Shown in pieces: positions 6,252-39,580 of a stretch of 64,000 nt of DNA. A program made the position numbers and the translations under genes. The number at the start of each line of letters is the position of its first letter. Position 1 is the stretch's first letter. The notes beneath the pieces were generated by a model. It was not told where the DNA came from. It searched no databases and worked only from the letters and a program-made list of their open reading frames with translations. Source of the stretch: Bordetella parapertussis (lineage in GTDB: Bacteria > Pseudomonadota > Gammaproteobacteria > Burkholderiales > JACQAP01); NCBI GenBank assembly GCA_945900965.1, contig CAMDKM010000009.1, positions 40,903 through 104,902 of the forward strand. The letters run 5' to 3'.

Positions 6252-6489
6252 GATCCATCCTCCATGAATGACTGCCGGCCCCGGACGTAACCCAATGTGG
6301 CAGGGAATTGATTGACCACCGCGCAAGGATCGGGTTCCCGATCGCGACGGGGGTGGGCAACGCTGTCGTCGTAGCGAATCTGGGTGCCCGTCGACACCTG
6401 AAAATATTACACCGATTCCCGGCTAGGGCACTGCAATTGCATAGCCTGGTTTGTCTGCCTATATGATGCAAAAAATGACCGGAGGAAAC

Positions 6490-17974: not shown

Positions 17975-18808
17975 ATGTATCTTCGTCCCACTAATCTGAA
18001 GGAGGCGCTCGGTGCCTTGTCCTCCGGCGGCATGACGGTGCTGGCGGGTGGTACCGATTTCTACCCCGCCCGGGTCGGGAAGCCGGTGACCGAGCGCATT
18101 CTCGACATCACTGCGCTCGATGCCCTGCGTGGTATTCGCGAGGAGGTGACCTATACCCGCATTGGCGCACTCACCACCTGGAGTGAATTGATCGCCCATC
18201 CCCTGCCGGATTGTTTTGCTGGTCTCAAAGCCGCGGCACGCGAAGTCGGAGGAAAACAAATCCAGAATGCCGGCACGATCGCCGGGAATCTCTGCAATGC
18301 TTCGCCCGCCGCAGATGGTATTCCGCCCTTGCTCGCGCTGGACGCGGAAGTCGAGCTGGCGTCCGCCGTGAAAAGCCGGCGGCTGCCGCTCTCCGAATTC
18401 GTTCTGCGCAACCGGCGCACCGCGGCGGCGGCCGACGAACTGCTCACCGCCATTCTGGTGCCGCATTGGGGAAGTGGCGCGCGCTCGAATTTCCTCAAGC
18501 TTGGCTCGCGGCGCTATCTGGTCATTTCCATCGTCATGGTGTCGGCAGTGCTGGAATCCGGTTCGGACGGGCGAGTGACTCGCGCGAGCGTCAGTGTTGG
18601 GGCGTGCTCCGAAGTGGCGCAGCGTTTACCGGCGCTGGAGAAACGTCTGCTCGGCCAGCCGATGTCGGTGGCCCTGGCCGATATTCCAGTGGCCTCGGAC
18701 CTCGACTCACTCAAACCCATCACCGACATACGCGGCACGGATGTATATCGACGCGATGCCGCTTTGACACTGGTGCGGCGAGCCTTGCGGGAGCTTCCCG
18801 GTGAATAA
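17975..18808 (+). CDS. xanthine dehydrogenase family FAD-binding subunit (candidate nicotinate hydroxylase)
   Basis: LAGGTDFYP, GGKQIQNAGTIAGNLCNASPAADGIPPLLAL motifs of FAD_binding_5. Confidence 0.93.
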   Translation: MYLRPTNLKEALGALSSGGMTVLAGGTDFYPARVGKPVTERILDITALDALRGIREEVTYTRIGALTTWSELIAHPLPDCFAGLKAAAREVGGKQIQNAGTIAGNLCNASPAADGIPPLLALDAEVELASAVKSRRLPLSEFVLRNRRTAAAADELLTAILVPHWGSGARSNFLKLGSRRYLVISIVMVSAVLESGSDGRVTRASVSVGACSEVAQRLPALEKRLLGQPMSVALADIPVASDLDSLKPITDIRGTDVYRRDAALTLVRRALRELPGE

Positions 18809-21596
18809 GCCGCGCGAACATTCCGCGCTCGACACACAGATCGGACGCAGAGCAATTTCTTTCCGGCTCAACGGCAGCCCGGCGCAAGTGGATGTAGATC
18901 CTGCCGCACGACTAACCGATGTATTGCGCGAACAACTGGGATTGACCGGCACCAAGGTCGGTTGCGAGGCTGGCGATTGCGGCGCCTGCACTATCCTCCT
19001 CGATGGCCGGCAAGTCTGTGCCTGCCTGACCGCGGCGGCGCAGGTTGAAGGGCGCGAGGTATTGACGGTCGAGGGCCTGGCCCGCAACGGCGAACTCAAT
19101 ACCCTGCAACGCGCGTTTCTTGCACACGGCGCGGCCCAGTGCGGCATTTGCACGCCGGGCATGCTGATGGCCGCGAGCGATTTGCTTCGGCGCATTGCCG
19201 AGCCCAGCGAAGAACAGGTGCGCGACGCACTTGGGGGCGTGTTGTGCCGCTGCACCGGCTATCGAAAAATTATCGACGCCGTGCTGGCCGTGGCGCGCGG
19301 GGATGTGCATGCTGACATGCCCGCTGCGAGCGCGGCGGTGGGCGCGCGTATCGCCAAGCTCGACGGCGCGTCGCTGGTTGATGGTTCGGCAGACTATGGC
19401 GCGGATCGTTTTCCCGTCGACAGCCTCTGGCTGCGGGTGATCCGCTCGCCGCACGCCCGTGCGCGATTTCGCTTCGGCGATTTGTCGGCGCTACGCCTTC
19501 GTCCTGGACTGGAAGCCGTGTTCACCGCGGCCGATGTTCCGGAGAACAGCTTCGGCATTTTTCCCCAGGTGAAAGATCAACCCGTACTTGCCGAGGCTCA
19601 TGTGCGTTTTCGCGGCGAGGCAGTGCTGGCGCTGGTTGGCGAACGGGACGCGGTGATTGCGGTGCCCGATTCGGCGATACCGATCGAGTGGATGCCCGAA
19701 GCACCGGTCGCCGATATGAATGTCGCCCTGACGGGGCAAACGTGCCTACACGATTTCGCGCCGGACAATGTGTTGATCCGTGGCCGGGTGGTGAAGGGCA
19801 ATGTCGAGCAGGTATTGTCCAACGCGGCTTACCGTGCCGAAGGAGAGTTCAGCACGCCTTATCTGGAACACGCCTACATCGAACCGGAGGCGGGCTACGC
19901 GGAGTGGTTTCGCGCGGCGGATGGGCGGGATCGTCTGCGGATTTTTTCCTGCACACAAACGCCCTATATGGATCGCGACGAAGTGGCGCGCGTATTGAAG
20001 CTCTCGCCCGAGACGGTGCATATTCTGCCCTCGGCGATTGGCGGGGGATTCGGCGGCAAACTCGATATAGCGATCCAGCCGTTGCTGGCGCTGGCGGCCT
20101 GGAAGCTCAAGCGCCCGGTGCGCGGTGTGTTCACCCGGCCCGAGTCGATGCTCACCACCACCAAGCGGCATCCATCGCGAATGCGCGCGCGGTTTGCCTG
20201 CAACGCAGAGGGCAAACTGCTGGCCGCCGATTTCTCCGGCGACTTCAACACCGGCGCCTATGCCTCATGGGGCAACACGGTGGCGAACCGTGTGCCGATC
20301 CATGCCTCGGGCCCGTATTTCGTTCCGCACGTCAGGGCACTGACCCGGGCGGTCTACACCAACGGACCGGTTGCCGGGGCATTCCGCGGCTTCGGCGTTC
20401 CTCAATCGACCTTGGTCCATGAAACATTGATCGAAGATCTTGCGGAGCGATGCGCCATCGATCCGCTGGAGTTCCGCTGGCGTAACGCAATTCGTGCCGG
20501 ACAGCCGACGGCAACCGGGCAGGTGCTGGTTGCCAGTTGTGGACTTTCACAATGTATAGAACGCCTGCGTCCCGCCTGGCAAGTCGCTCGCGAACATGCG
20601 CAGGCGTTCAATATGCAACAACGTGCCGTGGGTGGTACCCTGCGCCGAGGTGCCGGCATTGCCTGCATGTGGTATGGCATCGGCAATACGGTGATTGCCA
20701 ACCCGTCCACACTGCGAGTCGGGCTGCGCCGCAACGGGCGCTTGTTTCTATATAACGGCGCGGTGGATATCGGTCAGGGCTCCAGCACTGTCCTGCCGCA
20801 GATCTGCGCCGATGCGGTGGGGTTGCCGGTGGCGATGATCGACCAGGTGGTGGGCGACACCGATGCGACGCGCGATGCCGGCAAGACCTCCGCGTCGCGC
20901 CAGACTTTTGTGTCCGGCAATGCGGCGCGGTTTGCCGGCGAAGATCTGCGCAAGAAAATTCTGACTCTTGCTGGAGCGCCGCACCATGCATCGTTGGAAA
21001 TTGTCGGGCAAACACTTGTCGCGTGCGCCTCGGGCAAACAATGGCGGCTCGGACTTCTATCGGCGACTGCCGATGCAGACGGCAATATCGCCGTCGGCGA
21101 CGGCTACTTCGATCCGCCTACCACGCCGCTCAATACCGATGGCCAAGGCGCACCCTACGCCACCTATGGCTTCGCGGCGCAGATCGCCGAGGTCGAAGTC
21201 GATGAGGCGCTGGGCACCACCAGGGTCCTGCACATGCACGCGGCGCACGATGTCGGTCGCGCGATCAATCCCACCCAGGTTGAAGGCCAGATTCACGGCG
21301 GCATCGCGCAGGGCCTGGGCATGGCGCTGATGGAAGAGTATGTCGCGGGCCGTACCGACAACCTTCATGATTATCTGATTCCCACCATCGGCGATGTGCC
21401 ACCCATCACCACGCATCTGATCGAAGATCCCGAACCGCTGGGCCCGTATGGCGCCAAAGGGGTGGGCGAGCCGGCGCTGATTGCCACGGCGCCGGCCATT
21501 CTCAATGCGATACGGCACGCCACGGGCGTGCGCATGACGCAAGTGCCGGTGACGCCGGACCGGCTGCGCCAAGCCCTCCTGGAGCGCCGCGTATGA
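18801..21596 (+). CDS. molybdenum hydroxylase: 2x[2Fe-2S] domain fused to molybdopterin-binding large subunit
   Basis: CEAGDCGACTILLDG, CGICTPGMLMAASDLL...CRCTGYRKI, then GGGFGGKLDIAIQPLLALAAWKLKRPVR and GAKGVGEPALI. Confidence 0.93.
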   Translation: MNKPREHSALDTQIGRRAISFRLNGSPAQVDVDPAARLTDVLREQLGLTGTKVGCEAGDCGACTILLDGRQVCACLTAAAQVEGREVLTVEGLARNGELNTLQRAFLAHGAAQCGICTPGMLMAASDLLRRIAEPSEEQVRDALGGVLCRCTGYRKIIDAVLAVARGDVHADMPAASAAVGARIAKLDGASLVDGSADYGADRFPVDSLWLRVIRSPHARARFRFGDLSALRLRPGLEAVFTAADVPENSFGIFPQVKDQPVLAEAHVRFRGEAVLALVGERDAVIAVPDSAIPIEWMPEAPVADMNVALTGQTCLHDFAPDNVLIRGRVVKGNVEQVLSNAAYRAEGEFSTPYLEHAYIEPEAGYAEWFRAADGRDRLRIFSCTQTPYMDRDEVARVLKLSPETVHILPSAIGGGFGGKLDIAIQPLLALAAWKLKRPVRGVFTRPESMLTTTKRHPSRMRARFACNAEGKLLAADFSGDFNTGAYASWGNTVANRVPIHASGPYFVPHVRALTRAVYTNGPVAGAFRGFGVPQSTLVHETLIEDLAERCAIDPLEFRWRNAIRAGQPTATGQVLVASCGLSQCIERLRPAWQVAREHAQAFNMQQRAVGGTLRRGAGIACMWYGIGNTVIANPSTLRVGLRRNGRLFLYNGAVDIGQGSSTVLPQICADAVGLPVAMIDQVVGDTDATRDAGKTSASRQTFVSGNAARFAGEDLRKKILTLAGAPHHASLEIVGQTLVACASGKQWRLGLLSATADADGNIAVGDGYFDPPTTPLNTDGQGAPYATYGFAAQIAEVEVDEALGTTRVLHMHAAHDVGRAINPTQVEGQIHGGIAQGLGMALMEEYVAGRTDNLHDYLIPTIGDVPPITTHLIEDPEPLGPYGAKGVGEPALIATAPAILNAIRHATGVRMTQVPVTPDRLRQALLERRV

Positions 21597-23098
21597 GCAA
21601 GCCGATCAAGGTGCTGGATCACGCCGTGCCGAACCGGCCGCTGTCGGACAAGAAAATCGAGTGCAACGCCTGTCCGGTGTTGTGCCAGATCAGCGATGGG
21701 CGCACCGGCGCCTGCGATCGCTGGGGCAATGTCGGCGGCGTGCTCACACGGGTGGATCCGGTGGTGTTGTTCCGCAAGGTGGCGCGTGCCGAAGGCGAAG
21801 TTACCGGTTTTCTTGGCGGCGAAGAATGGGATGGCGGCCTCGTGCGCGATGCGCCGGTGTTTGTTTCAGGCGTGGGCTCGGGTACCACTTATCCGGATTA
21901 CAAGCCGGCGCCATTTATCGTGAGCGCGCAACACGCGGGCGTAGACATGGTCACTGTGGTGACCGAAGGTATCTTCAGTTACTGCGGATTCAAGGTGAAG
22001 ATCGACACCGACCGCTGGCTCGGGCCGGAGCAGGCCACGGTGCGGTGCAAGGGCGAGGCGGTCGGGCATGTCACCACCGCGGAGTACGGCTCGCAGATGC
22101 TCTCGCTGGGCGGCGTGCATCACCTCACCGGCGGCAGCAAGAAGGAGGGCCGCGTGACCTGCGAGATGATGATGGAACTCGGTAACAAGCAGGCGGTGAA
22201 ACTGGAGATCGACGGCGGGGCGCGTTTGCGGATTCAGGCCAATCGTGCGCCGCTGATCAACGGCGTGGAAGAGCGCCGCATGCGGGTGGGCTGCGGCTCG
22301 GCCACCATTGGCATTTTCGCCAAGCAGTGGTTCCGTCACGCCGATGAAGTGGTGGTGGTGGACGACCATATCACCGGGGTGCTGACCGAACATCAGGCCG
22401 GCCGCTGTCTCGACATGCCGCCTTCCGGCATCAAGATTCGCGGGCGCAAGTCCACGCCTGGGCGTTATTTCCAGGTGGCCAAGCCCGGTACCGGATGGGG
22501 TGGCACCGACATCACCGATCCGCTGACGATTGTTACCGGCTTCGACGCGGAAGTGGCCCGGCCCGGCAGCCGCATTCTGATGGTGTCCACCACCGGAGAA
22601 GATGCGGCGTTTTTTGTGCTCGATGAGAAGTTGCGCTTGATGCCTGCACCGATGCCGGCGCCCCTGCAAAAGGTAGTGGATCGCATCGGAGAAAACTGCG
22701 AGCCCTCGCTGGCAACCGTGCTGTTCATGGCCGGCGCCGGCGGCAGCCTGCGCGCCGGCGTGACCGACAATCCGGTGCGCCTCACTCGCTCGGTGCAGGA
22801 GTTGCTGGTGAATGTCACCTGCGGCGGCGCTCCGGCCTATGTGTGGCCGGGCGGTGGCATCACGGTCATGGTGGATGTTGCGCGCATGCCCGACAACTCG
22901 TTCGGCACCGTGCCCACACCGGCCATTGTCGCACCGATCGAATTCAGCATGCGGCTCGCCGATTACGAGCGCCTCGGCGGACACATGGATCGCGTGCGCA
23001 CGGTCGACGACGTGATGAAAAACGAACGGGTGCGAATGGTGGAGTGGGACGGGTTGAATCCGTGGCCATTGTTTGACGCGGTGAAGGGGGAAGGGTGA
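21593..23098 (+). CDS. 6-hydroxynicotinate reductase-like iron-sulfur protein
   Basis: N-terminal IECNACPVLCQISDGRTGACDRWGN (CxxCxxxC...C), many further Cys; overall similar to the Hnr family as I recognise it; ATGA overlap with Mo subunit. Confidence 0.8.
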   Translation: MSKPIKVLDHAVPNRPLSDKKIECNACPVLCQISDGRTGACDRWGNVGGVLTRVDPVVLFRKVARAEGEVTGFLGGEEWDGGLVRDAPVFVSGVGSGTTYPDYKPAPFIVSAQHAGVDMVTVVTEGIFSYCGFKVKIDTDRWLGPEQATVRCKGEAVGHVTTAEYGSQMLSLGGVHHLTGGSKKEGRVTCEMMMELGNKQAVKLEIDGGARLRIQANRAPLINGVEERRMRVGCGSATIGIFAKQWFRHADEVVVVDDHITGVLTEHQAGRCLDMPPSGIKIRGRKSTPGRYFQVAKPGTGWGGTDITDPLTIVTGFDAEVARPGSRILMVSTTGEDAAFFVLDEKLRLMPAPMPAPLQKVVDRIGENCEPSLATVLFMAGAGGSLRAGVTDNPVRLTRSVQELLVNVTCGGAPAYVWPGGGITVMVDVARMPDNSFGTVPTPAIVAPIEFSMRLADYERLGGHMDRVRTVDDVMKNERVRMVEWDGLNPWPLFDAVKGEG

Positions 23099-23246: not shown

Positions 23247-24149
23247 TTGAAGCGCAGTAGAGGGGGGGCTAAAGCACGACCCACGCATGGCGCGGAACGA
23301 ACACGGCTCGCCGATGGGCGCTACCGATTTCTGCATGGCCCGATCGATCTGGTGATCGGCGCGGATGGTGAAGCCACGGCAGTGAATAGGGCGGTGGAAA
23401 AAGCGTGGAACCGTTTCGAGACGATTCTTGCCGAACTGGTGACCGAACTATCCTGGCTGCGCCTGCCAGTGCAGGAGGCTATTGGAGTACGTGGCGCGGT
23501 GGCTCGCCGAATGGTGGCTGCAACGCGCCCCCATTGCGAACGCTTCATCACGCCAATGGCGGCGGTGGCGGGTGCGGTCGCCGATGAGCTGATCGGCTAT
23601 TTCCGGGATGAATCTCTCATCGAGCGAGTCCATGTCAACAACGGCGGCGATATCGCGTTGCATCTTACGCCCGGGAAAGTTTATCGGGTGGGCATGATGG
23701 CGGATATCGAAAGCGTGAAAAGCCGCGAACAGACTCTGCTGGACGGCACTTTTGAAGTTAGCCACGACTCTGGCGTCCGGGGAGTAGCCACCAGCGGCTG
23801 GCGCGGACGCAGCCACAGTCTGGGTATCGCCGATGCCGTGACCGTGCTGGCGAATAGCGCATCTGCCGCGGATGCCGCTGCCACGCTGATCGCCAACGAT
23901 GTGAACCTCGAAGATCCTGCCATACTGCGCAAGCCCGCGAATAGGCTGAAAGACGACACGGATTTGGGCGAGCGGTTGGTGACCATCGGTGTCGGCGAGT
24001 TGTCGCCGGAACAAATAGACGTGGCGCTCGATGCCGGTGAGCGGACAGCGCGCAGGATGCAGGAGGCTGGACAGATTTACGCCGCGACGCTTTGGTTGCA
24101 AGGTTCGGCACGCTTGGTGGTGCCCGAGAATCTCAAGGATTGCAGATGA
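23247..24149 (+). CDS. UPF0280 (ApbE-like) family protein
   Basis: YRFLHGPIDLVIGADGE, VRGAVARRMVAATRPHCERFITPMAAVAGAVADELI; N-terminal part of ORF 23109.. is repeat sequence; start uncertain (TTG near 23247). Confidence 0.8.
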   Translation: MKRSRGGAKARPTHGAERTRLADGRYRFLHGPIDLVIGADGEATAVNRAVEKAWNRFETILAELVTELSWLRLPVQEAIGVRGAVARRMVAATRPHCERFITPMAAVAGAVADELIGYFRDESLIERVHVNNGGDIALHLTPGKVYRVGMMADIESVKSREQTLLDGTFEVSHDSGVRGVATSGWRGRSHSLGIADAVTVLANSASAADAAATLIANDVNLEDPAILRKPANRLKDDTDLGERLVTIGVGELSPEQIDVALDAGERTARRMQEAGQIYAATLWLQGSARLVVPENLKDCR

Positions 24150-24730
24150 AAGCCAGAATCAGAAAAATTATCGTACAGGTGGATGAAACCTATATTGAGA
24201 TGGGCCGCCCCATTTCGCCGCCCACGCGGCGCGCGCTGGCGATGGCGGTGGTCGAAAATCCGTTCGCTGGACGGTACCAGGAAGACCTGTCGGCGCTGAT
24301 CGATATCGGCGAAGAACTGGGCGGCTTGCTCGGGGGAAAATGTGTCGAAGCACTGGGGATTGCGCCGGGCAAAGCCGAGAGTTATGGCAAGGCGGCCATT
24401 GTCGGCGAGCGGGGTGAACTCGAACACGCCGCCGCAATCCTGCATCCGAAACTCGGCGCACCCTTGCGGCTGGCGGTGGAGAAGGGCGCGGCACTGGTGC
24501 CCTCGGCCAAAAAAATAGGCACCCTGGGCACCGCCATCGATGTGCCGCTGGGCCACAAGGACGCCGCCTTCGTGCGCAGCCATTTCGATGCCATCGAGGC
24601 GCGGGTGAGCGATGCTCCGCGCGCCGACGAAATTGTGGTCGCGGTGGCGGTCACCGACAGCGGGCGTCCTTTGGCTCGCATCGGTGGCCTGCAAAAACAT
24701 GAGATCAAGGGAACCGATGGGTTGCGTTGA
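24146..24730 (+). CDS. DUF1185 / amino acid synthesis family protein
   Basis: MKARIRKIIVQVDETYIEMGRPISPPTRRALAMAVVENPFAGRYQEDLSALIDIGEELG; ATGA overlap with UPF0280 stop. Confidence 0.85.
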   Translation: MKARIRKIIVQVDETYIEMGRPISPPTRRALAMAVVENPFAGRYQEDLSALIDIGEELGGLLGGKCVEALGIAPGKAESYGKAAIVGERGELEHAAAILHPKLGAPLRLAVEKGAALVPSAKKIGTLGTAIDVPLGHKDAAFVRSHFDAIEARVSDAPRADEIVVAVAVTDSGRPLARIGGLQKHEIKGTDGLR

Positions 24731-24986: not shown

Positions 24987-26189
24987 ATGAAAACAAAAAT
25001 ATTGGTTCTGTCGGCGATCTGGGTGAGCGCCACAGCCGCAATTGCGCAACAACCAATTCGTATCGGCGAAATCAGCAGCTACTCGACCGTGCCGGCGTTC
25101 ACCGTTCCCTACCGAAACGGCTGGCAACTGGCGGTGGAGGAAATCAACGCGGCAGGCGGCTTGATCGGCGGGCGCAAGCTGGAAGTTATTTCCCGCGATG
25201 ATGCCGGCAAGCCGGATGATGCCACCCGGCATGCCTCGGAACTGTTGTCCAGCCAGAAGGTCAATCTGCTGACCGGAACTTTTCTATCCAATGTTGGCCT
25301 TGCGGTCAGCGATGTCGCGCTTCGCAACAAGATGTTGTTTGTAGCCGCGGAGCCACTTTCCGATGCGCTGGTATGGGACAAAGGCAACCGCTACACCTTC
25401 CGTCTGCGGCCCAGCACTTACATGCAGTCCGCGATGCTGGTGGAAGAGGCCGCCAAGTTGCCCGCGAAACGCTGGGCGACCATCGCCCCGAATTACGAGT
25501 ATGGCCAATCGGCCGTGGCGAATTTCAAGGAACTGCTCAAGGCCAAGCGCCCCGATGTCGAGTTTGTTGCCGAACAATGGCCCGCGCTGGGCAAGCTGGA
25601 AGCCGGCGCAACCACGCAGGCTCTGGCGAGCGCCAAGCCGGACGCGATTTTCAACGTCACCTTTGGCGCCGACCTGACCAAATTCGTGCGCGAAGGTAAT
25701 CTGCGTGGCCTGTTCGAGAATCGTGCTGTGGTCAGCATGTTGACCGGTGAACCCGAGTACCTCGATCCCCTCAAGGACGAAACACCCAGGGGGTGGATTG
25801 TCACCGGCTATCCGTGGGATCAGATCAAGCGGCCTGCGCACGACAAGTTCGTCGAGGCCTATCGCAAGCGCTTCAACGAAACCCCGCGCCTGGGTTCAGT
25901 GGTGGGCTACACCACCTTCATGTCCATTGCGGAAGCGATCCGTAAGGCCAAATCCACCGACACGGAAAAACTCGTGGTGGCCTTTCGCGGCCTGAACGTC
26001 GAATCGGTATTCGGCCCCATCACCTTCCGCGCCCTGGATCAGCAGTCAACCCTGGGCGCATTCGTCGGCAAACTCGATCTCCAGGGTGAGCGTGGCGTGA
26101 TGGTGGATTGGCACTATAAGGACGGCAAGGACTACCAGCCACCGGAGGCATTGGTCGGGAAGCGTCGGCCTGCGGAGGCGATGAAGTAA
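24987..26189 (+). CDS. ABC transporter substrate-binding protein (Leu/Ile/Val-type family)
   Basis: Signal peptide; IRIGEISSYSTVPAFTVPYRNGWQLAVEEINAAGGLIGGRKLEVISRDDAGKPDDATRHASELL. Confidence 0.92.
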   Translation: MKTKILVLSAIWVSATAAIAQQPIRIGEISSYSTVPAFTVPYRNGWQLAVEEINAAGGLIGGRKLEVISRDDAGKPDDATRHASELLSSQKVNLLTGTFLSNVGLAVSDVALRNKMLFVAAEPLSDALVWDKGNRYTFRLRPSTYMQSAMLVEEAAKLPAKRWATIAPNYEYGQSAVANFKELLKAKRPDVEFVAEQWPALGKLEAGATTQALASAKPDAIFNVTFGADLTKFVREGNLRGLFENRAVVSMLTGEPEYLDPLKDETPRGWIVTGYPWDQIKRPAHDKFVEAYRKRFNETPRLGSVVGYTTFMSIAEAIRKAKSTDTEKLVVAFRGLNVESVFGPITFRALDQQSTLGAFVGKLDLQGERGVMVDWHYKDGKDYQPPEALVGKRRPAEAMK

Positions 26190-26204
26190 CCGAAAGATTC
26201 AAAA

Positions 26205-26565: not shown

Positions 26566-26582
26566 AATTGTTTCACCCGACC

Positions 26583-26933: not shown

Positions 26934-26974
26934 TATCTTTCTCCGTGATTCAGCGGCTTTAACCCACATTCTCC

Positions 26975-27215
26975 ATTAGACCCTCGCTATCCAATAAAAA
27001 TACGGGTTCACATAAAATGCAAAACTCTTCAACACGAAGGGCACGAAGGTAAACACGAAGGATCACGAAGGAAATCCATTCCAACAAGGCCGAGGCAATA
27101 TTCATTTGCACTTGCCTTCCTTCGAGTTCTTCATGAATTCCTAAAAGGGTACTCCACGCTATCGCGAGGGTATTCGTGCGCCTTCGTGTTAACGCGTTTT
27201 TATTTTCCAATGGAA
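26975..27215. repeat. Family A element (CACGAAGG type), extended copy with insertion in right arm
   Basis: caacacgaagggcacgaaggtaaacacgaagg...ccttccttcgagttcttc...gtgcgccttcgtgttaacgcg; flanks shared with the copy at 10.4 kb. Confidence 0.85.
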
Positions 27216-27234
27216 TGTCTGGGTTTAATTAGGT

Positions 27235-28266: not shown

Positions 28267-28295
28267 GGCGGGCAGCGAGTTTTCAAGAAAACAAT

Positions 28296-28455
28296 TTACT
28301 CTCTCACCGCGGAGGACGCGGAGGAAAAGCATGAAACAATGGAACATACCCTGTGATGAAAGGTCGTCAGAATATTGAAAGTAACCATTCAAACTTTAGC
28401 ATTCTATAGTCCTTCCTCTGCGTCCTCCGCGTCCTCTGCGGTGAGAGAGTTTAAT
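28296..28455. repeat. Family B inverted repeat
   Basis: actctctcaccgcggaggacgcggaggaaaagc...ccttcctctgcgtcctccgcgtcctctgcggtgagagagt. Confidence 0.9.
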
Positions 28456-28479
28456 CTTTAACTCTCTAGACACGAGCTC

Positions 28480-29292
28480 TCAAGCGAGTGTCTCAGCCAA
28501 TTCCGCGATATTAGCCACTATAAGGTCGGGCTGATGCGGTGTTTCCCCGAACGGCCGTTTCCGTCTATCGATGAACGCCGTCCGCATTCCGTAGGATTTG
28601 GCGCCGATGCAATCGAAGGCATGGTTGGCGACAAACAGGATACCGGAACGTTCCTGCCCGATGATCTCTTCGGCCTTGGCATAGGTCTTCCAGTGCGGCT
28701 TGAAATAACCGGCCTCCTGCACCGATATGACATGATCGAATGCAAAGCCAATATGCGGCCCGGCGGCTTTGAGCATATCGCGGTCGCCGTTGGAGAGGAT
28801 GGCAAGCTTGTAACCCTTGGCCCGGAGCTTTTTCAGTGCTTCGACCACATCGGGAAATGGCTTGAGCGTCTCGATCTGGCTGACGAGCCAGCGGACCTCG
28901 TCTTTCGTGTAGGCAATCCGGCAGCGGTCCATGACATGGGCCACCGCGCGCTGGCTGATCTCCCGGTAGGCCGTATGGCCCCGATCGCACAGCGAATCGA
29001 TCATCGAGTTCTCGAAGTGCGTCCGGCGCCACCAGGTAACAAAGCTGTTCGGCTCGCCGGTCCAGCCCTTTTGTTTCAGGAACGGCGCGACGGCCTCGGT
29101 GAGGCCTTTCTGGATATCGACGATAGTTCCGTACTGGTCGAAGGCCAAGGCCTTGATTTCGCGTTTCTGGATGTCGGAATTCTTCATCGAAGCGTTACGA
29201 TTGGCCCGCGACATGAACAGCACATGGGCGCCGAAAGAGCAGGTCTGCTTGAATATCGCTCTCGCCATGGGCGTCTTGCAATATTCCTCCAT
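28480..29292 (-). CDS. haloacid dehalogenase type II (HAD superfamily)
   Basis: ALAFDQYGTIVDIQKGL, LAILSNGDRDML, GILFVANHAFDCIGAKSYGMRTAFIDR; start may be internal near 29190. Confidence 0.88.
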   Translation of the reverse strand: MEEYCKTPMARAIFKQTCSFGAHVLFMSRANRNASMKNSDIQKREIKALAFDQYGTIVDIQKGLTEAVAPFLKQKGWTGEPNSFVTWWRRTHFENSMIDSLCDRGHTAYREISQRAVAHVMDRCRIAYTKDEVRWLVSQIETLKPFPDVVEALKKLRAKGYKLAILSNGDRDMLKAAGPHIGFAFDHVISVQEAGYFKPHWKTYAKAEEIIGQERSGILFVANHAFDCIGAKSYGMRTAFIDRRKRPFGETPHQPDLIVANIAELAETLA

Positions 29293-29501
29293 CGCGAATT
29301 AGGCAAGGGGGTGACCCCTCATCCACTTTTTCTCTCGTTGCGTACTTCGTGCCCGAATTCAAGAAAACATTACGTACCTATAACCCAGATGCGGTTCCAG
29401 CGCGGCGCCGAAGGGCTTATTTGGCGGAGGATGTCTGCCATCGACAGGATGTAGTTAATCTTATGATTTCGCGAACCCCTTACAAACCGCAATCCATTAG
29501 G

Positions 29502-29756
29502 TTAGCCGACGATTTTGTCGTACTCTCCGTGGGTTCCAATCCAGATCCACAGGATTCCATCATCGACTTCAGTACCGAGAGCTCGGTAGCTCCCGCCAAT
29601 CCGCACCGACCACAGTTTTCCCAGACCTTTAAAATGAAGCGAAGGACGCTTCGGATCGCGCTTGAGTAGAGCGTAGTTTTTATCCGCCAGTAAGCGTGCC
29701 GCTGCGGGAAGGTCGCCGTATGGTGCCCAGAATCGCGATGAGGCGTCATGTTTCAA
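29502..29756 (-). CDS. RelE/ParE-like toxin of a type II TA pair
   Basis: LHFKGLGKLWSVRIGGSYRALGTEVDDGILWIWIGTHGEYDKIV is a RelE/HigB-like C-terminal pattern; overlaps antitoxin. Confidence 0.78.
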   Translation of the reverse strand: MKHDASSRFWAPYGDLPAAARLLADKNYALLKRDPKRPSLHFKGLGKLWSVRIGGSYRALGTEVDDGILWIWIGTHGEYDKIVG

Positions 29757-29953
29757 ATCGGACGAGTGTTGCCGACCTTATGGTCAGCAAGCGCATCTGA
29801 AACCAGTTTGTCCAACTTTCCGGCTTCCGAATCGGCAGCGATTTGCTTGTCCCACATCGGGGCATCAAATTCCACGAACCATTCGCGGAATTGTTTCAAC
29901 TTTTCCGACGAAAGCTTCTGAACGTGCTCTTCCAGCTTTTCCAGTTCACTCAT
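29753..29953 (-). CDS. antitoxin partner of the RelE/ParE-like toxin
   Basis: MSELEKLEEHVQKLSSEKLKQFREWFVEFDAPMWDKQIAADSEAGKLDKLVSDAL; ATG overlaps toxin start. Confidence 0.78.
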   Translation of the reverse strand: MSELEKLEEHVQKLSSEKLKQFREWFVEFDAPMWDKQIAADSEAGKLDKLVSDALADHKVGNTRPI

Positions 29954-30104
29954 GTTGGTGTCTCGATGTTTGCGGATATTTGCCTTCAGTTACGATCGCG
30001 ATCCATCGCGCCCGCTTGGTCAGGGCAAGTAACTTGCCTTGACCACGCAACAGACTCACGACCGCATTGGTGTCGAGCAAACAGCGCTCAGGCGGGCCAT
30101 TCAT
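29946..30104 (-). pseudogene. truncated PIN-domain (VapC) toxin
   Basis: ERCLLDTNAVVSLLRGQGKLLALTKRARWIAI then out of frame/stop; about 50 aa against about 130 expected. Confidence 0.65.
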
Positions 30105-30318
30105 TGCGCAAAGTGCGCTGCTGCTCCAGCGCATCGCCGGACCAACACAGGCGCCTGGCCAAATCGGAAAAGTCGTAACCGGGCGCGCGAGGAACCGCAG
30201 ACGACACCGACTCGATTACCAGCACCAATTCCACCTCTCCAGAAGGCAAGGTGGTGGGCACATCGAGGCGCAGATGTCCATCCTCGTCGACTTGGCTCTT
30301 GAATTTGAGGGTTTGCAT
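30088..30318 (-). CDS. small antitoxin-like protein upstream of truncated VapC
   Basis: MQTLKFKSQVDEDGHLRLDVPTTLPSGEVELVLVIESV; overlaps PIN remnant. Confidence 0.65.
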   Translation of the reverse strand: MQTLKFKSQVDEDGHLRLDVPTTLPSGEVELVLVIESVSSAVPRAPGYDFSDLARRLCWSGDALEQQRTLRNEWPA

Positions 30319-30366
30319 GCATACACTTCTAGCTGCCCATGCTATACAGCATCGGCCCAAGCGGCA

Positions 30367-30408
30367 AGTTTTAGAGTGACAGTTTTAGAGTGACAGTTTT
30401 AGAGTGAT
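30367..30408. repeat. three tandem 14-bp repeats AGTTTTAGAGTGAC/T
   Basis: agttttagagtgac agttttagagtgac agttttagagtgat. Confidence 0.95.
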
Positions 30409-30488
30409 AGGTTTCCCCCCAATCCCCCTTTTGCAGACCGCTCTTTCGTCCTAATATGGGACCTATTCGGCAAATTGGGCTCTCGCAA

Positions 30489-30722
30489 ATGGCAACTTCA
30501 CGGCAAGTATTTGAAATCACCGCGGGAGAAATTGCGGGCGAATTGAGGCGTCGTGGCATTGGGTCAGATGAACGCGTGACGCTTACTATTGAGCCCGATC
30601 AGGAAATCATCCCGGGCCGGCGGGAATCCCGCGCCCGGGTTGTCGCTGCCGGGCTGACGGATGAAGATATCGACCGACTGGTAAAGCAAGCTCAGAAGGA
30701 AGTGGAACCGCCTGGCGGATGA
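30489..30722 (+). CDS. antitoxin-like protein
   Basis: MATSRQVFEITAGEIAGELRRRGIGSDERVTLTIEPDQEI; overlaps following PIN fragment by ATGA. Confidence 0.65.
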   Translation: MATSRQVFEITAGEIAGELRRRGIGSDERVTLTIEPDQEIIPGRRESRARVVAAGLTDEDIDRLVKQAQKEVEPPGG

Positions 30723-30925
30723 AGATTGTCGTCGATACCAACGTATTTGTGAGCGTGGCCCACAGTGCGTGCCGCCAGCAACCTAAATCATGCTCTTCCG
30801 TCCTTCAATTCCTTTCACCCATTCTCAGACGAACCGCCAAGCAAAGTCAGCATCGCAAACCTGCTCAACCAGCGCACCATCGTGCTGGAGGTCCCAGTAC
30901 TGGAAATCCAGAATTGCTATCATAA
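30719..30925 (+). pseudogene. truncated/frameshifted PIN-domain toxin
   Basis: MKIVVDTNVFVSV PIN start, then non-PIN sequence. Confidence 0.65.
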
Positions 30926-30971
30926 ATGATGAGTGATATCGTATAGGTGTCAATTTAACGGAGTGATAGCT

Positions 30972-31208
30972 ATGGCAGCCGTGACCATCAGAAATTTACC
31001 GGATGAAACCCTGCGCGCCCTCAAGAAACGCGCCGAACAGGGTGGACGCAGTACGGAGGCTGAAATGCGTGTGATCTTGCAGAATGCGGTACGCCCACAG
31101 CGCGGAATGGGAACGGTATTGGCGGAAATCGGCCGAAAACATGGGGGTGTTGAATTTCCGAAGACGCGCAAGCGTAGCCCGGTGCGGCCGGTGAACTTTG
31201 ATTCATGA
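30972..31208 (+). CDS. FitA-like ribbon-helix-helix antitoxin
   Basis: MAAVTIRNLPDETLRALKKRAEQGGRSTEAEMRVILQNAV. Confidence 0.88.
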   Translation: MAAVTIRNLPDETLRALKKRAEQGGRSTEAEMRVILQNAVRPQRGMGTVLAEIGRKHGGVEFPKTRKRSPVRPVNFDS

Positions 31209-31624
31209 TTATTCTGGATACGAATCTTGTCTGCGAACCCCTCAAACCGAAGCCTCATGCTGCGGTGTTGGCCTGGTTGGATCGTCAAGCGCCGGAAACG
31301 CTCTATCTCACTACGATTACGTTGGCTGAGCTACAGGCGGGCATCGAGGTCTTACCAGTAGGGAAACGTCGCAAGGCGTTGCAGGAAGTGACGAGAGAAT
31401 TAGTTGCCCAGTTTGAGGGGCGCATCCTGTCGTTCGATCAGGGCAGCGCAAACGCGTTTGGACTCGTGGTCGCGGGCACGCAAGCAGCGGGCAATGCGAT
31501 TCACTTTGGTGATGGCGCGATCGCCGCGATCGCCATCAGTCGAAGTTTCGTACTGGCGACCCGAAATGTACGGGACTATAAGGGCGCGGGCATCGAATTG
31601 ATTAACCCTTGGAACGCATCCTAA
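31205..31624 (+). CDS. FitB/VapC-like PIN-domain toxin
   Basis: MIILDTNLVCEPLKP, LYLTTITLAELQAGIEVLPVGKRR, FGDGAIAAIAISRSFVLATRNVRDYKG. Confidence 0.9.
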   Translation: MIILDTNLVCEPLKPKPHAAVLAWLDRQAPETLYLTTITLAELQAGIEVLPVGKRRKALQEVTRELVAQFEGRILSFDQGSANAFGLVVAGTQAAGNAIHFGDGAIAAIAISRSFVLATRNVRDYKGAGIELINPWNAS

Positions 31625-31796
31625 GAAATCTCTTTAAGCCTGCATCGTCTGCCCCAAGCGACGGGCTTTTGCTCAATGCCATGGTAACTTTGACGTTGTC
31701 TTCCTTAAAAACAAGTTTATCCGGCCTGGATAGAAAGTCATCGATGACCCGGAGCCTGCCCATCGGTTCATTTGTATATTTAACTTTGCTCTTCAT
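31602..31796 (-). pseudogene. CopG/BrnA-type antitoxin remnant
   Basis: MKSKVKYTNEPMGRLRVIDDFLSRPDKLVFKEDNVKVTMALSK then aberrant C-terminus. Confidence 0.6.
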
Positions 31797-31990
31797 AGAT
31801 TTTCGTGCCTCTGCGCCAGTAACCGGCGCCAAGTATGCGAATGATGCCCTCACGGTAGGTAAAACGAACCGTTAAGGCTCCGTACCCAACCCAGCCTATG
31901 CAGTAGTGCCGTATTTCACCGTGACTGTGGCTCAGGTCTTCGCCTCAGAATATCCCAGATCGGCGAATTGGCGTGTTTCGAGATTGTCTT
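31785..31990 (-). pseudogene. BrnT-like toxin remnant
   Basis: Reverse strand reads GEDLSHSHGEIRHYCIGWVGYGALTVRFTYREGIIRILGAGYWRRGTKIYEEQS* with an in-frame stop immediately upstream. Confidence 0.6.
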
Positions 31991-32050
31991 TATGTCCAGT
32001 CATTTACAATGATTTTATTGAGGAAGGGAAACCCGCCTTGTTCAAGAAGT

Positions 32051-32080
32051 CTGGATTCCCGTTTCCACGGGAGTGACATT
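32051..32080 (-). repeat. dRS3-like core, partial copy
   Basis: ctggattcccgtttccacgggagtgacatt is the reverse of aatgtcattcccgt...acgggaatccag. Confidence 0.75.
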
Positions 32081-32186
32081 TCGGAGCGCCATCCAGTGTT
32101 TGCCTAAAATGCCAAAAACTCAATAGTGATAGGCTTCGGCGAAAATCAAAACGCACGGTACTGCCGCGGGCTGATACCTACAAGAA

Positions 32187-34049
32187 ATGTCTTCCCTATT
32201 GATCCAAATCCTGAGCGGGTTGGCGCATGCGTCCACGTTGTTCCTGGTGGCTTGCGGACTATCGATCATTTTTGGCGTGACCCGTATCGTCAATTTCGCC
32301 CACGGTTCGTTCTACATGCTGGGGGCGTATCTGGCGTACAGCATTACGGCGTTCCTGACGCCGGCCATGGGCGGGGTGGGGTTCTGGGGGGCGCTGTTTC
32401 TGGCGGCGGTAGTGGTGGGGCTTGTGGGCGTGGTGGTGGAAGTGGTTATTCTTCGGCGAATATATCGCGCGCCGGAACTATTTCAGTTACTGGCGACCTT
32501 CGGTGTGGTGCTGCTGGTGCAGGATGCGGCGCTGTGGATTTGGGGACGGGAGGATTTGTTCGCGGGGCGGGCGCCGGGGCTGAAGGGCACGGTGGAGATT
32601 TTTGGCGAGCGGTTTCCGCAGTATCACCTGTTCCTGATCGTGCTCGGGCCGATCGTGCTGGGGCTTCTCTGGCTGCTGTTCAACCGCACGCGTTGGGGCA
32701 CGCTGGTGCGCGCCGCGACGGAGGATCGGGAGATGACAGGGGCGCTAGGGGTAAACCAGCGTTGGCTATTTACCGGCGTGTTATTCCTGGGCTCGATGCT
32801 GGCCGGTTTGGGCGGGGCCTTGCAGATTCCCAAGGAAGCGGTGAACTTGCAGATGGATATTCACATCATCACCGAGGCCTTTGTGGTGGTGGTGATCGGC
32901 GGGCTGGGTAGTGTGGCCGGCGCCTATCTCGCGGCGCTTCTGGTGGGAGAAATTTCCGCGCTGGGAATTCTGTTGTTTCCGCAGGCGACGCTGGTGTTGC
33001 CGTTTCTGGTGATGGCGCTGGTGCTGGTGCTTCGCCCATACGGGTTGCTCGGCGTTGCGGAAGGGCGAGGGCGCTCTGCGGGCACGGCTTCGGAGACTTA
33101 TCTTAAACCGCCGTCGCGGAATTTTGTATTGGGTGTGTTAATCGGCTTTGCGGTGTTGACGCTCGCGCCGCTTGTGGCTGGGGACTACGCGCTGTTGTTG
33201 CTGACCGAGTTCATGATCTTCGGGCTGTTCGCGGTGAGTCTGCATTTCATCATGTCGATTGGCGGCATGGTGTCCTTCGGCCACGCGGCGTTTTTCGGGC
33301 TGGGCGCTTATGTCGCCGCGCTGGTATCGAGTCGGCTTGCGCTCTCGATGGAATTCGCCATTGTCCTGGCGCCGCTGGGTGCCGCGCTGGGCGCGCTGAT
33401 CTTCGGCTGGTTCTGCATCCGACTCTCCGGTGTGTACCTCGCCATGTTGACGCTCGCCTTCGCGCAAATTCTCTGGTCGGGCGCCTTTCAGTTCGCATGG
33501 ACCGGTGGCGACAATGGCGTGCTTGGTGTCTGGCCCTCAGCGTGGGCGGGGTCGAAGGCCGTGTATTTTTATCTGACGCTGGTATTGAGCGCAGGGGCCA
33601 TCGCCCTGGCATGGCGTGCGATTTTTTCGCCGTTCGGTTATGCACTGCGGGCGGGGCGCGATTCGCCGCTGCGCTCCGAGGCGATTGGCATCAACGTGCG
33701 TCGCCAGCAATGGCTGGCCTTTGCATTCGCCGGCGCGCTGGCGGGGTTGGCGGGCGCGCTTTACGTCTTTCACAAAGGATCGGTGTTTCCCAATGTGTTG
33801 TCGATCCCGCAGTCGGTGGATGCGCTGGTGATGGTGCTGATGGGGGGCATTCAAACGATTACCGGGCCGGTGGTCGGCGCGGCTGCTTATCACTATTTGC
33901 AAACGGAAATCATGCGTGCGACAGAATACTGGCGCGCCATTCTGGGTGGAGTGATTCTGCTGGGCGTGACGATATTTCCGCGCGGCATAGTCGGCACCTT
34001 GAGCGGGCTGCGGGCAGGGCAAGTTGTCAGCGGAGCGACATCGCCATGA
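32187..34049 (+). CDS. fused branched-chain-type ABC transporter permease (LivH-LivM fusion)
   Basis: LivH-like ACGLSIIFGVTRIVNFAHGSFYMLGAY then LivM-like GGMVSFGHAAFFGLGAYVAAL in a single 620-aa ORF. Confidence 0.93.
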   Translation: MSSLLIQILSGLAHASTLFLVACGLSIIFGVTRIVNFAHGSFYMLGAYLAYSITAFLTPAMGGVGFWGALFLAAVVVGLVGVVVEVVILRRIYRAPELFQLLATFGVVLLVQDAALWIWGREDLFAGRAPGLKGTVEIFGERFPQYHLFLIVLGPIVLGLLWLLFNRTRWGTLVRAATEDREMTGALGVNQRWLFTGVLFLGSMLAGLGGALQIPKEAVNLQMDIHIITEAFVVVVIGGLGSVAGAYLAALLVGEISALGILLFPQATLVLPFLVMALVLVLRPYGLLGVAEGRGRSAGTASETYLKPPSRNFVLGVLIGFAVLTLAPLVAGDYALLLLTEFMIFGLFAVSLHFIMSIGGMVSFGHAAFFGLGAYVAALVSSRLALSMEFAIVLAPLGAALGALIFGWFCIRLSGVYLAMLTLAFAQILWSGAFQFAWTGGDNGVLGVWPSAWAGSKAVYFYLTLVLSAGAIALAWRAIFSPFGYALRAGRDSPLRSEAIGINVRRQQWLAFAFAGALAGLAGALYVFHKGSVFPNVLSIPQSVDALVMVLMGGIQTITGPVVGAAAYHYLQTEIMRATEYWRAILGGVILLGVTIFPRGIVGTLSGLRAGQVVSGATSP

Positions 34050-34816
34050 GCCTGCTGGAAGTGAATGGACTGTGTCGGCGCTTTGGCGGCGTGGAAGCGG
34101 TAAAGGACGTGTCCTTCCGTCTGGAAGCCGGAGAACTGCTGGCGCTGATCGGGCCGAACGGGGCGGGCAAATCCACTTGCTTCAATCTGCTCAACGGGCA
34201 GTTGTGGCCGGATCGCGGACAGGTGAAATTGGAGGGCCGCGATATCACCGCGCTGAAGCCGCGCGAACGCTGGGCGCTCGGCGTGGGGCGGACCTTTCAG
34301 ATCACTGCGACCTTCAGCTCGATGAGCGTGCGCGAAAACGTGCAGATGGTTCTGCTCTCGGCGGCACGGCGGCTGAACGGGTTCTGGACCCGGGCCTCGA
34401 AGTGTTATCAGGCGCAGGCCGATGCACTGCTGGAAAAGGTCGGCATGTTGACCCAGGCGCAGCGCCCCTGCGGGCTGCTGGCCTATGGGGATGTGAAGCG
34501 CGTTGAGCTGGCGATGGCACTGGCATCGCGTCCACGCCTGCTGCTGATGGACGAGCCCACCGCCGGCATGGCGCCGGGCAAGCGCGACGCCTTGATGGTG
34601 CTGACGGCTTCGCTGGCCAGGGAGCAGGGCATCGGCGTGTTGTTCACCGAACACAGCATGGACGTGGTGTTCACCCATGCTCGGCGGGTCCTGGTGATGG
34701 CGCGCGGGCGGCTCATCGCCGAAGGCGACCCGGCCAGCGTGAGGGAAAATGCCGAGGTGAAGTCGATCTACTTCGGCACCGGCGCGACTTTCCGGCCGCA
34801 TCCGGCTCTGTCATGA
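34046..34816 (+). CDS. ABC transporter ATP-binding protein (LivG-like)
   Basis: MSLLEVNGLCRRFGGVEAVKDVSF, GPNGAGKST, LLLMDEPTAGM; start at 34046 inside ORF 33497..34816. Confidence 0.93.
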   Translation: MSLLEVNGLCRRFGGVEAVKDVSFRLEAGELLALIGPNGAGKSTCFNLLNGQLWPDRGQVKLEGRDITALKPRERWALGVGRTFQITATFSSMSVRENVQMVLLSAARRLNGFWTRASKCYQAQADALLEKVGMLTQAQRPCGLLAYGDVKRVELAMALASRPRLLLMDEPTAGMAPGKRDALMVLTASLAREQGIGVLFTEHSMDVVFTHARRVLVMARGRLIAEGDPASVRENAEVKSIYFGTGATFRPHPALS

Positions 34817-35526
34817 GTGCGTCATTGCTCAGTGTGCGGAATCTTCGTGCCTGGTATGGCCGGGCGCAGATCCTTTATGACCTGGATTTCGAAGTAGCAC
34901 GCGGGGAAGTGGTGGCCTTGATGGGGCGTAACGGAGCGGGCAAGTCCACCACCTTCAAGGCGCTCATGGGTCTGCTGGATCGGGCCGAGGGCGAGATTGT
35001 GTTCGACGGCCTCGCGTTGCGCGGTCAGGAGCCGTATCGCATCGCCCGTGTCGGGTTGGGCTATGTGCCGGAAGACCGGCGCATTTATTCAGGCCTGACC
35101 GTGACCGAAAATCTCGAAGTGGGAAGACAGGCACCGCGCACCAACGCGCCGCACTGGACTGCGGAAAAACTTTTCCAACTGTTTCCCAATTTGGGTGAAA
35201 TGCGCGATCGTCCGGGCGGGCAAATGAGCGGCGGGGAACAACAGATGCTGACCGTGGCGCGCACCCTGATGGGCAACCCGCTCCTGGTGCTGCTCGACGA
35301 ACCCTCCGAGGGTCTCGCGCCAAAAATCGTGGAAGACATGGCCAACACCATCCTGGAGTTGAAGAAGGAAGGCCTTTCGGTGATGTTGTCGGAGCAGAAT
35401 CTGCACTTCGCGCGCCTGGTCTGCGACTGCGCCTACCTGATCGAAAAAGGCCAGGTACGCTTCGCGGGCAGCATGGCGGAACTGGAAGCCAACGAAGACG
35501 TTCGCCGTGCTTACTTGACGATATGA
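34813..35526 (+). CDS. ABC transporter ATP-binding protein (LivF-like)
   Basis: LMGRNGAGKSTTFKALMGLL, GYVPEDRRIYSGLTVTENLEV, MSGGEQQMLTVARTLMGNP. Confidence 0.93.
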   Translation: MSASLLSVRNLRAWYGRAQILYDLDFEVARGEVVALMGRNGAGKSTTFKALMGLLDRAEGEIVFDGLALRGQEPYRIARVGLGYVPEDRRIYSGLTVTENLEVGRQAPRTNAPHWTAEKLFQLFPNLGEMRDRPGGQMSGGEQQMLTVARTLMGNPLLVLLDEPSEGLAPKIVEDMANTILELKKEGLSVMLSEQNLHFARLVCDCAYLIEKGQVRFAGSMAELEANEDVRRAYLTI

Positions 35527-35947: not shown

Positions 35948-37138
35948 ATGGCGGTGGAAACGGACACATCGAGCAAGGGTAAACTTGTCATTCGCAACGT
36001 CGGGTTGATGTTGTCGGGCGACATTGACCGGCCGATTCTGGATGCGGATACGGTGGTGGCGGTCGATGGGCTGATCACAGCAGTGGGCAAGGAAAAGGAC
36101 TGCGACACCTCGAAGGCCGATACTGTGATCGATGTGCGCGGAACCTGTTTGGCGCCGGGTTTGATCGACAGCCATGTACATCCAGTGTTTGGCGACTGGA
36201 CGCCGCGGCAGAACCAGCTCGGCTGGATCGACTCGACGTTGAACGGCGGGGTCACCACCATGATCTCGGCGGGGGAAGTGCATCTGCCCGGGCGACCCAA
36301 GGACATTGTCGGGCTCAAGGCGCTGGCCATCACCGCGCAACGCGCGTTCCATAATTTCCGGCCAGGCGGCGTCAAGGTGCTGGCTGGCGCGCCGATCATT
36401 GAACGAGGCATGGTGGAGTCGGATTTCAGTGAGCTCGCCCAGGCGGGCGTCACCCTGCTGGGCGAAGTGGGACTGGGTTCGGTGAAGGCGGGCGCGGAGG
36501 CGCGGCAGATGGTGGCCTGGGCGCGCAAGTACGGCATCCAGAGCACCATCCACACCGGTGGGCCATCGATCCCCGGTTCCGGCCTGATCGACAAGGATGT
36601 GGTGCTGGAGGCCGACGCGGATATCATCGGCCACATCAATGGTGGCCATACCGCCTTGTCCGAAGCCCATGTCTGCGAATTGTGCGAGCGCTCCACCCGC
36701 GCCATCGAGATCGTCCATAACGGCAATGAAAAAGTTGGCATCGCGGCCGTGCAAGCGGCGCGCGACGGCAAATGTCTGCATCGAGTCATTCTCGGCACCG
36801 ACGGGCCCGCCGGCTCGGGCGTGCAGCCGCTGGGCATTCTGCGCATGGTGGCGCTGATCTCCAGCCTGGGTGGCATTCCCGCCGAACAGGCATTTTGTTT
36901 TGCGACCGGCAACACCGCGCGCATCCGCAAACTCAATTCCGGCCTAATTGAGACGGGACGGGCGGCGGATTTTGTGTTCATGGACCGGGCCCAGCACACC
37001 GCCGGGCGCACGCTGCTTGAAAGCGTGGCGCTGGGGGATATTCCGGGCGTGGGGATGGTGGTGATCGACGGGGTGGTACGCTGCGAGCGCAGCCGCAATA
37101 CGCCCCCTGCGACGGAGGTGCCGGTTTTGCATTACTAA
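35948..37138 (+). CDS. amidohydrolase, enamidase-like (1,4,5,6-tetrahydro-6-oxonicotinate ring opening)
   Basis: LIDSHVHPVFGDWTPRQNQ, GGVTTMISAGEVHLPGRPKD, GEVGLGSVKAG, HTGGPSIPGSG, GHINGGHTALS, SRNTPPA, which match what I recall of E. barkeri enamidase. Confidence 0.85.
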   Translation: MAVETDTSSKGKLVIRNVGLMLSGDIDRPILDADTVVAVDGLITAVGKEKDCDTSKADTVIDVRGTCLAPGLIDSHVHPVFGDWTPRQNQLGWIDSTLNGGVTTMISAGEVHLPGRPKDIVGLKALAITAQRAFHNFRPGGVKVLAGAPIIERGMVESDFSELAQAGVTLLGEVGLGSVKAGAEARQMVAWARKYGIQSTIHTGGPSIPGSGLIDKDVVLEADADIIGHINGGHTALSEAHVCELCERSTRAIEIVHNGNEKVGIAAVQAARDGKCLHRVILGTDGPAGSGVQPLGILRMVALISSLGGIPAEQAFCFATGNTARIRKLNSGLIETGRAADFVFMDRAQHTAGRTLLESVALGDIPGVGMVVIDGVVRCERSRNTPPATEVPVLHY

Positions 37139-37140
37139 TG

Positions 37141-37345
37141 AAAAACCAAAACGCTCTCACCGCAGAGGACGCAGAGGACGCGGAGGAAAAGCAAGGAAGC
37201 GGGAAATGAAGCGTGACAACTAGGCGGACCGAAATCCATTCACGTGTTTTCCTCGTTGTGTTTTTCATGCTTTCCCTCTGCGTCCTCCGCGTCCTCTGCG
37301 GTGAGAGATTTTTTTGCCCGTCCTTCGCGGTGAGAGAAGGTTGTA
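37141..37345. repeat. Family B inverted repeat
   Basis: ctctcaccgcagaggacgcagaggacgcggaggaaaagc...ccctctgcgtcctccgcgtcctctgcggtgagag. Confidence 0.9.
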
Positions 37346-37457
37346 TTATTAACCGTATCAGTATCCAGCAGGAGTGCTAGACTTTTCGGGCAGGGCATTG
37401 GTCCCCGGACGGGGATGGGGCAACGTGACAACAGATTACCAATCAGGAGGAGAGGCA

Positions 37458-38189
37458 ATGAGTGACTTTGACAGAAGGAAATTTCTTGCCGCGGCGGGGG
37501 CCAGCGCGCTGGCGGCGGCGAGTTCGTTGAGTTTTTTCGGTAGTGCGTTGGCGGCGGGCAAGATCAAGCCTGGGGCGGGTGATGCTCTGCTGGTGATCGA
37601 CGTACAGAATTGCTTTACTTCGGGTGGCAGCCTGGCGGTGAAGGAGGGGGACCTGATCGTGCCGCTGATCAATCAAATTGCCAAGGGCTTCGCCAATGTG
37701 GTGATGACCCAGGACTGGCACACGGCGGACCACGTTTCCTTCGCTTCGCAACACGAAGGCAAGAAACCGTTCGAGGCGATCAAGCTGGACTATGGCACCC
37801 AGGTGTTATGGCCCGACCACTGCGTGCAGGGTACAGATGGGGCTTCGCTGCACAAGGATCTGAGCATTCCGCATGCGCAACTGGTGATTCGCAAGGGCTT
37901 CCACAGCAAGGTGGATAGCTATTCTGCATTCCTGGAGGCGGATCGCAAGACTGAAACTGGCCTCGCCGGCTATCTCAAGGGCCGCAAGATCAAGCAAGTG
38001 TTTGTCTGCGGATTGGCGACCGATTACTGCGTGGCCTGGTCGGCAATGGATGCGCGCAAGTTTGGGTTTTCGGCATCGGTGATTGAAGATGCCTGCCGCG
38101 GTATTGACCTGAATGGTTCCATTGCTGCGGCGTGGAAAGATATGGGCAAGGCTGGGGTGAAGCGGATTCAGTCGAGCGATATGGGCTAA
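37458..38189 (+). CDS. nicotinamidase (PncA-like, isochorismatase family) with Tat signal peptide
   Basis: MSDFDRRKFLAAAGASALAAASSLSFFGSALA Tat signal; LLVIDVQNCFTSGGSLAV, TQDWHTADHVSFASQH, WPDHCVQGTDGASLH, RKGFHSKVDSYSAF, VCGLATDYCV. Confidence 0.9.
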   Translation: MSDFDRRKFLAAAGASALAAASSLSFFGSALAAGKIKPGAGDALLVIDVQNCFTSGGSLAVKEGDLIVPLINQIAKGFANVVMTQDWHTADHVSFASQHEGKKPFEAIKLDYGTQVLWPDHCVQGTDGASLHKDLSIPHAQLVIRKGFHSKVDSYSAFLEADRKTETGLAGYLKGRKIKQVFVCGLATDYCVAWSAMDARKFGFSASVIEDACRGIDLNGSIAAAWKDMGKAGVKRIQSSDMG

Positions 38190-39361: not shown

Positions 39362-39580
39362 ATTCAAAAGCGTTTGACACAGAGGACACAGAGAACACGG
39401 AGAACACAGAGAGAAAACACAGGCTTGAGATATGAAATTCGAAGCTTCCGAGCTGTGAGGACGACGATCACACGATGCATGCCACCATACGAATGTTGTC
39501 GTTCGCACAGAAAATTCCTCTTTTTAATTTCTCCTTGTTCTCTTTTTCCTCTGTGACCTCTGTGTCAAACGCCCTTGACC
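39362..39580. repeat. Family C tandem-armed inverted repeat (ACACAGAGA/ACACGGAGA type)
   Basis: gcgtttgacacagaggacacagagaacacggagaacacagag...tgttctctttttcctctgtgacctctgtgtcaaacgc. Confidence 0.85.

Follow-up and report, generated by a model that had tools for sequence, protein, structure and literature searches.

A Predicted Tat-Exported Nicotinamidase in a Nicotinate-Catabolism Gene Neighborhood of Burkholderiales

The window analyzed here, a 64,000-nucleotide stretch of contig CAMDKM010000009.1 from a Burkholderiales genome (GCA_945900965.1), carries on its forward strand a series of genes associated with pyridine metabolism. The FAD subunit of a molybdenum hydroxylase (17975..18808) is followed by a fused 2Fe-2S/molybdopterin hydroxylase subunit (18801..21596; putative nicotinate dehydrogenase), a putative 6-hydroxynicotinate reductase (21593..23098), a UPF0280-type protein (PRK04334; 23109..24149), a PF06684 "amino acid synthesis" protein (24143..24730), and a periplasmic substrate-binding protein (Peripla_BP_6; 24987..26189) with the Sec-type leader MKTKILVLSAIWVSATAAIAQ. 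Further downstream, domain matches identify a fused LivH-LivM permease (32187..34049), a LivG-type ABC ATPase (34046..34816), and a LivF-type ABC ATPase (34813..35526), which are succeeded by an enamidase (35948..37138; ATG behind GGAGAG) and by the subject of this analysis, a nicotinamidase gene encoding a putative Tat signal peptide (tat-pncA, 37458..38189). The enamidase aligns over residues 12–390 of 396 with the solved enamidase PDB 2vun (E = 1.9e-108). The molybdenum hydroxylase and the branched-chain-type ABC transporter were recognized by domain architecture, and their substrates are putative. No Pfam or NCBIfam model matched the reductase, which is named from its conserved context and the published cluster (PMC3511419).

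That published cluster, for reductive nicotinate catabolism, was described in Azorhizobium and Bradyrhizobiaceae SG-6C, after the pathway of Eubacterium barkeri (PMC3511419). Like the window, it comprises a molybdenum hydroxylase, a 6-hydroxynicotinate reductase homologue (putative in the window), an enamidase, an ABC transporter, and two conserved proteins, for which the UPF0280-type and PF06684 proteins are the candidates here. Judged by gene content, the neighborhood of tat-pncA is this known cluster. The window differs by the addition of a predicted exported nicotinamidase, which would extend the cluster to nicotinamide and place the first step outside the cytoplasm. The gene lies 14 kb from the reductase; the binding-protein and permease genes are 6 kb apart with unrelated genes between them, and 319 bp including a palindromic repeat separate the enamidase from tat-pncA, so that the genes need not form a single operon. 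Read by eye, the interval 26190-32186 holds one ORF resembling methyltransferases, another resembling haloacid dehalogenases, and, at 30933-31624, a pair that looks like an antitoxin with a PIN toxin. The palindrome, with 51-nt arms, is formed by a GC-rich repeat, CGCAGAGGACGCAGAGGA, which has 14 matches against 0.05 expected and is intergenic, often in inverted pairs (37148-37313, 26214-26539, 28308-28440, and 39364-39578).

The tat-pncA product has 243 residues and starts at an ATG preceded by AGGAGG. The original prediction had drawn the gene as 37374-38189; the reading frame and the motifs it quoted are present, but GTG 37374 is merely the first GTG in the open frame, and the quoted, signal-bearing protein begins at ATG 37458. 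The product has a full isochorismatase domain (PF00857), scores 205.2 bits against NCBIfam NF008623 (bifunctional nicotinamidase/pyrazinamidase; cutoff 174; residues 42–240), and finds its best solved-structure match in the Acinetobacter baumannii nicotinamidase PDB 2wt9 (E = 2e-87; residues 40–242). The canonical PncA residues noted earlier are in place: by PncA homology, D48, K146, and C191 are assigned as catalytic, and D86, H88, and H121 (the last within WPDHC) as metal ligands, all six being invariant in 136 aligned Tat-type sequences, one alignment gap excepted. By score and active-site residues, the product is a complete nicotinamidase. The window's genome encodes no second isochorismatase-family (PF00857) protein.

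PncA is the textbook cytosolic enzyme of NAD salvage, also known for activating pyrazinamide in tuberculosis. Cytosolic PncAs (NF008623; Acinetobacter baumannii 2wt9) share with the tat-pncA product the catalytic domain, the D/K/C triad, the D/H/H ligands, and a near-full-length match, but known PncAs have no signal peptide, whereas the tat-pncA clade carries a conserved Tat signal. The isochorismatase superfamily is broad and the nicotinamide activity of this clade is predicted from sequence, which leaves room for another amide, such as a substituted pyridine carboxamide or a plant amide, as the main periplasmic substrate. The equivalog-level PncA score, the invariant catalytic and metal residues, and linkage to nicotinate genes argue against such a substrate, which we consider the least probable of the alternatives discussed here.

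The signal peptide, MSDFDRRKFLAAAGASALAAASSLSFFGSALA (37458..37553, + strand), displays an n-region with an RRxFL-type motif (DRRKFL), a hydrophobic h-region, and an A-x-A site with predicted cleavage between ALA and AG, such that the mature protein would begin AGKIKP. A twin arginine precedes a hydrophobic stretch in 80/80 nearest relatives, which were drawn from GTDB species genomes by similarity to the whole protein; 79 satisfy a strict Tat-type rule, and the remaining one reads DRRQLF. Of shuffles of the window protein's N-terminus, 0.4% satisfy the same rule, and among PncAs none outside the Tat clade does. The 136-row alignment was itself picked with the Tat-type rule, making RR invariance there partly a product of construction, and the 80 relatives constitute the fair sample. 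In a set of 54 Bradyrhizobium genes whose signals share one length, the in-frame pS of 0.44 exceeds the pN of 0.13 in the signal segment and the relation is reversed in both shifted frames, which argues that the segment is translated and under purifying selection. It is less strictly constrained than the mature part (dN/dS 0.21 vs 0.06).

The conserved arginine pair, the rarity of such a motif among shuffles, and in-frame selection together rule out a chance signal-like leader and bear out the Tat signal originally proposed for this PncA. The window's genome also encodes TatC (239 bits, 8.4e-71), and Tat export of the product is well supported on sequence and evolutionary grounds. The case named beforehand as counting against export, an internal start that bypasses the signal, was looked for and yielded no plausible codon: the only in-frame candidates are TTG24 and TTG31, both inside the signal, and GTG46, the remaining start codon after signal onset, and none has a Shine-Dalgarno sequence. 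Elsewhere in the window, an intradiol-dioxygenase-like protein (5568-6326, − strand) has a leader, MDIQRRKVLGTAMLAAVAGPALA, that by eye also looks Tat-type.

PncA was retrieved at E ≤ 1e-30 from 135/398 genomes of the phylum, and N-termini were inspected on frames of sufficient length for a signal. In a maximum-likelihood tree, all 37 Tat rows together with L167, a sequence in which RR has become RW, form one clade (support 99/99); an enlarged tree with more order-level rows unites 40 Tat rows with the non-Tat L167 and L292 (98/87). Comparison of exported with cytosolic forms, as suggested with the original prediction, thus places the Tat forms in one supported clade. This clade is nested among cytosolic PncAs, the closest of which include copies from the same order. 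The simplest reading of these trees is one gain and two losses of the Tat signal in PncA. Several signal origins were considered and set aside, given that the trees require just one gain and two losses, although this is not a formal exclusion. In L167, DRWQIL stands in place of DRRQIL, a naturally occurring loss of the twin arginine that leaves the hydrophobic stretch intact. The gene is patchily distributed, as three genomes of the same genus lack both PncA and the reductase.

Across 400 genomes of the order that were surveyed for linkage to nicotinate genes, the reductase is encoded in 29 and a PncA (E ≤ 1e-50) in 44, with the Tat form in 21 of the latter. The reductase occurs in 15/21 Tat-PncA genomes vs 14/379 others (Fisher p = 5e-15, uncorrected for kinship), and the comparison with non-Tat PncA genomes points the same way (15/21 vs 6/23; p = 0.006, likewise uncorrected for kinship), although the reductase is thus also found alongside some non-Tat PncAs. 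In six genomes of three families (f124, f97, and f2), tat-pncA lies 2–10 kb from the reductase. Three loci (L261, L262, and L264) display the order reductase, UPF0280, PF06684, binding protein, LivHM, LivG, LivF, tat-pncA, with tat-pncA directly after livF and, unlike in the window, with adjoining binding-protein and permease genes. The enamidase adjoins tat-pncA in two Burkholderiales MAGs (L002 and L003, the latter being the same contig as L268). In G447, one of the six genomes, the cluster has an enamidase and a Tat-pncA, but nothing in it matches the ABC genes of the window. A further candidate for a linked Tat case, G586, was discarded, its PncA being without a signal. On the 3′ side of tat-pncA in L262 (10922-15010) lies a molybdopterin hydroxylase whose fusion partners are a transmembrane segment and motifs of cytochrome c; it resembles a NicB-type nicotinate dehydrogenase, unlike the FAD-type hydroxylase of the window.

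Ten genomes of two families (f60 and f50) have a signal-less PncA linked to the reductase, at a distance of some 4 kb except in G008, where it is 11 kb; in four of these genomes, the frame is too short for any signal. Such rhizobial-type clusters with cytosolic pncA indicate that catabolism is possible without export. Together with the two Tat-clade members in which the signal or the arginine pair was lost (L292 and L167), they lend some weight to the view that the signal is vestigial or inefficient and the enzyme mostly cytosolic, like its counterpart in the rhizobial-type clusters. Retention of RR throughout the clade while adjacent residues differ, purifying selection on the segment, and the lack of an internal start speak against a vestigial signal, which we regard as improbable.

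In most Bradyrhizobium loci, tat-pncA resides far from the reductase in a conserved dnaK-grpE stretch, flanked in a by-eye reading by dapB, pyrF, dnaJ, dnaK, and a gene for a secreted protein, then by grpE, hrcA, rph, and rdgB. This conserved setting suggests that the exported PncA is a stable core gene in Bradyrhizobium and that the catabolic linkage of tat-pncA is a feature of Burkholderiales; for Bradyrhizobium, a strictly catabolic Tat-PncA is rejected. The original prediction, scavenging of external nicotinamide for catabolism, is hence supported for the window and related Burkholderiales, where the gene lies within a nicotinate-catabolism and ABC-uptake cluster, and fails for the family as a whole, given the Bradyrhizobium locus and the rhizobial-type clusters in which the PncA is cytosolic.

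These observations also bear on the possibility that the exported PncA serves mainly NAD salvage, with periplasmic nicotinamide from NAD/NMN breakdown or plant material converted to nicotinate for PncB and with the place in catabolic clusters of some Burkholderiales being a later recruitment. The housekeeping locus of Bradyrhizobium, away from nic genes, is in keeping with this, as are the presence of PncB in the window's genome (477 bits) and the finding that the Tat form is the sole PncA in 9/18 genomes examined. Against it stands the linkage to catabolic genes, seen in the window and again in six further genomes of Burkholderiales, and a predominantly salvage role appears unlikely, if clearly less so than the other alternatives. 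Salvage and catabolism share their first step and are not mutually exclusive; the enzyme could serve NAD salvage in addition.

The reading we favor is that a Tat-exported nicotinamidase generates periplasmic nicotinate, which is taken up for catabolism or NAD; as a whole explanation, we give it a probability of roughly 0.7. Tat export of folded, cofactor-bearing enzymes is established for other proteins. The tat-pncA product would fold and bind its metal in the cytoplasm, be exported as a folded enzyme with cleavage after ALA, and deamidate nicotinamide in the periplasm. Metal loading before export is suggested by the conserved ligands and the behavior of the Tat system; PncA is a metalloenzyme, and metallochaperones can reactivate its metal-depleted form in vitro (PMC6941528). 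The released nicotinate would be imported, most simply by the ABC transporter of branched-chain type encoded nearby, together with its periplasmic binding protein. In the cytoplasm, hydroxylation would yield 6-hydroxynicotinate, which the reductase homologue would reduce before ring opening by the enamidase; alternatively, the nicotinate could be directed to PncB for NAD. A plausible gain is that anionic nicotinate would be retained and recognized by the binding protein, whereas nicotinamide diffuses. In this scheme, we infer that export takes place, that the enzyme acts on nicotinamide, that the ABC transporter carries nicotinate, and that periplasmic deamidation is coupled to uptake. The more specific proposal of a compartmentalized module, in which the Tat nicotinamidase turns leak-prone neutral nicotinamide into a periplasmic nicotinate anion for dedicated ABC capture, with a signal that arose once and a gene recruited to the nicotinate clusters of Burkholderiales, has in our estimate about an even chance of being correct.

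A nicotinamidase that opens nicotinamide catabolism has a precedent in NaaA, an accessory gene product conferring growth on nicotinamide in Alcaligenes sp. P156 (PMC6403243). NaaA has 27% identity to its nearest characterized nicotinamidase, and the P156 route proceeds via 2,5-dihydroxypyridine (PMC6403243); in a term search of that article, neither signal peptide nor periplasm came up. Within the open-access literature, covered mostly as titles and the beginnings of abstracts, no exported bacterial PncA, nor its place in a nicotinate cluster, was found. Nicotinamidase, Tat export, and the nicotinate-catabolism cluster are each established, and the new element would be the exported PncA lineage. 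A conserved exported lineage that is often the sole PncA would mean that Bradyrhizobium, like many Burkholderiales from soil, uses nicotinamide from the periplasm. If the enzyme is exported, models and annotations that put the nicotinamidase step in the cytosol would be wrong for these bacteria. Since one version of the catabolic cluster carries the predicted exported PncA and another a cytosolic one, what is gained from the compartment can be tested directly.
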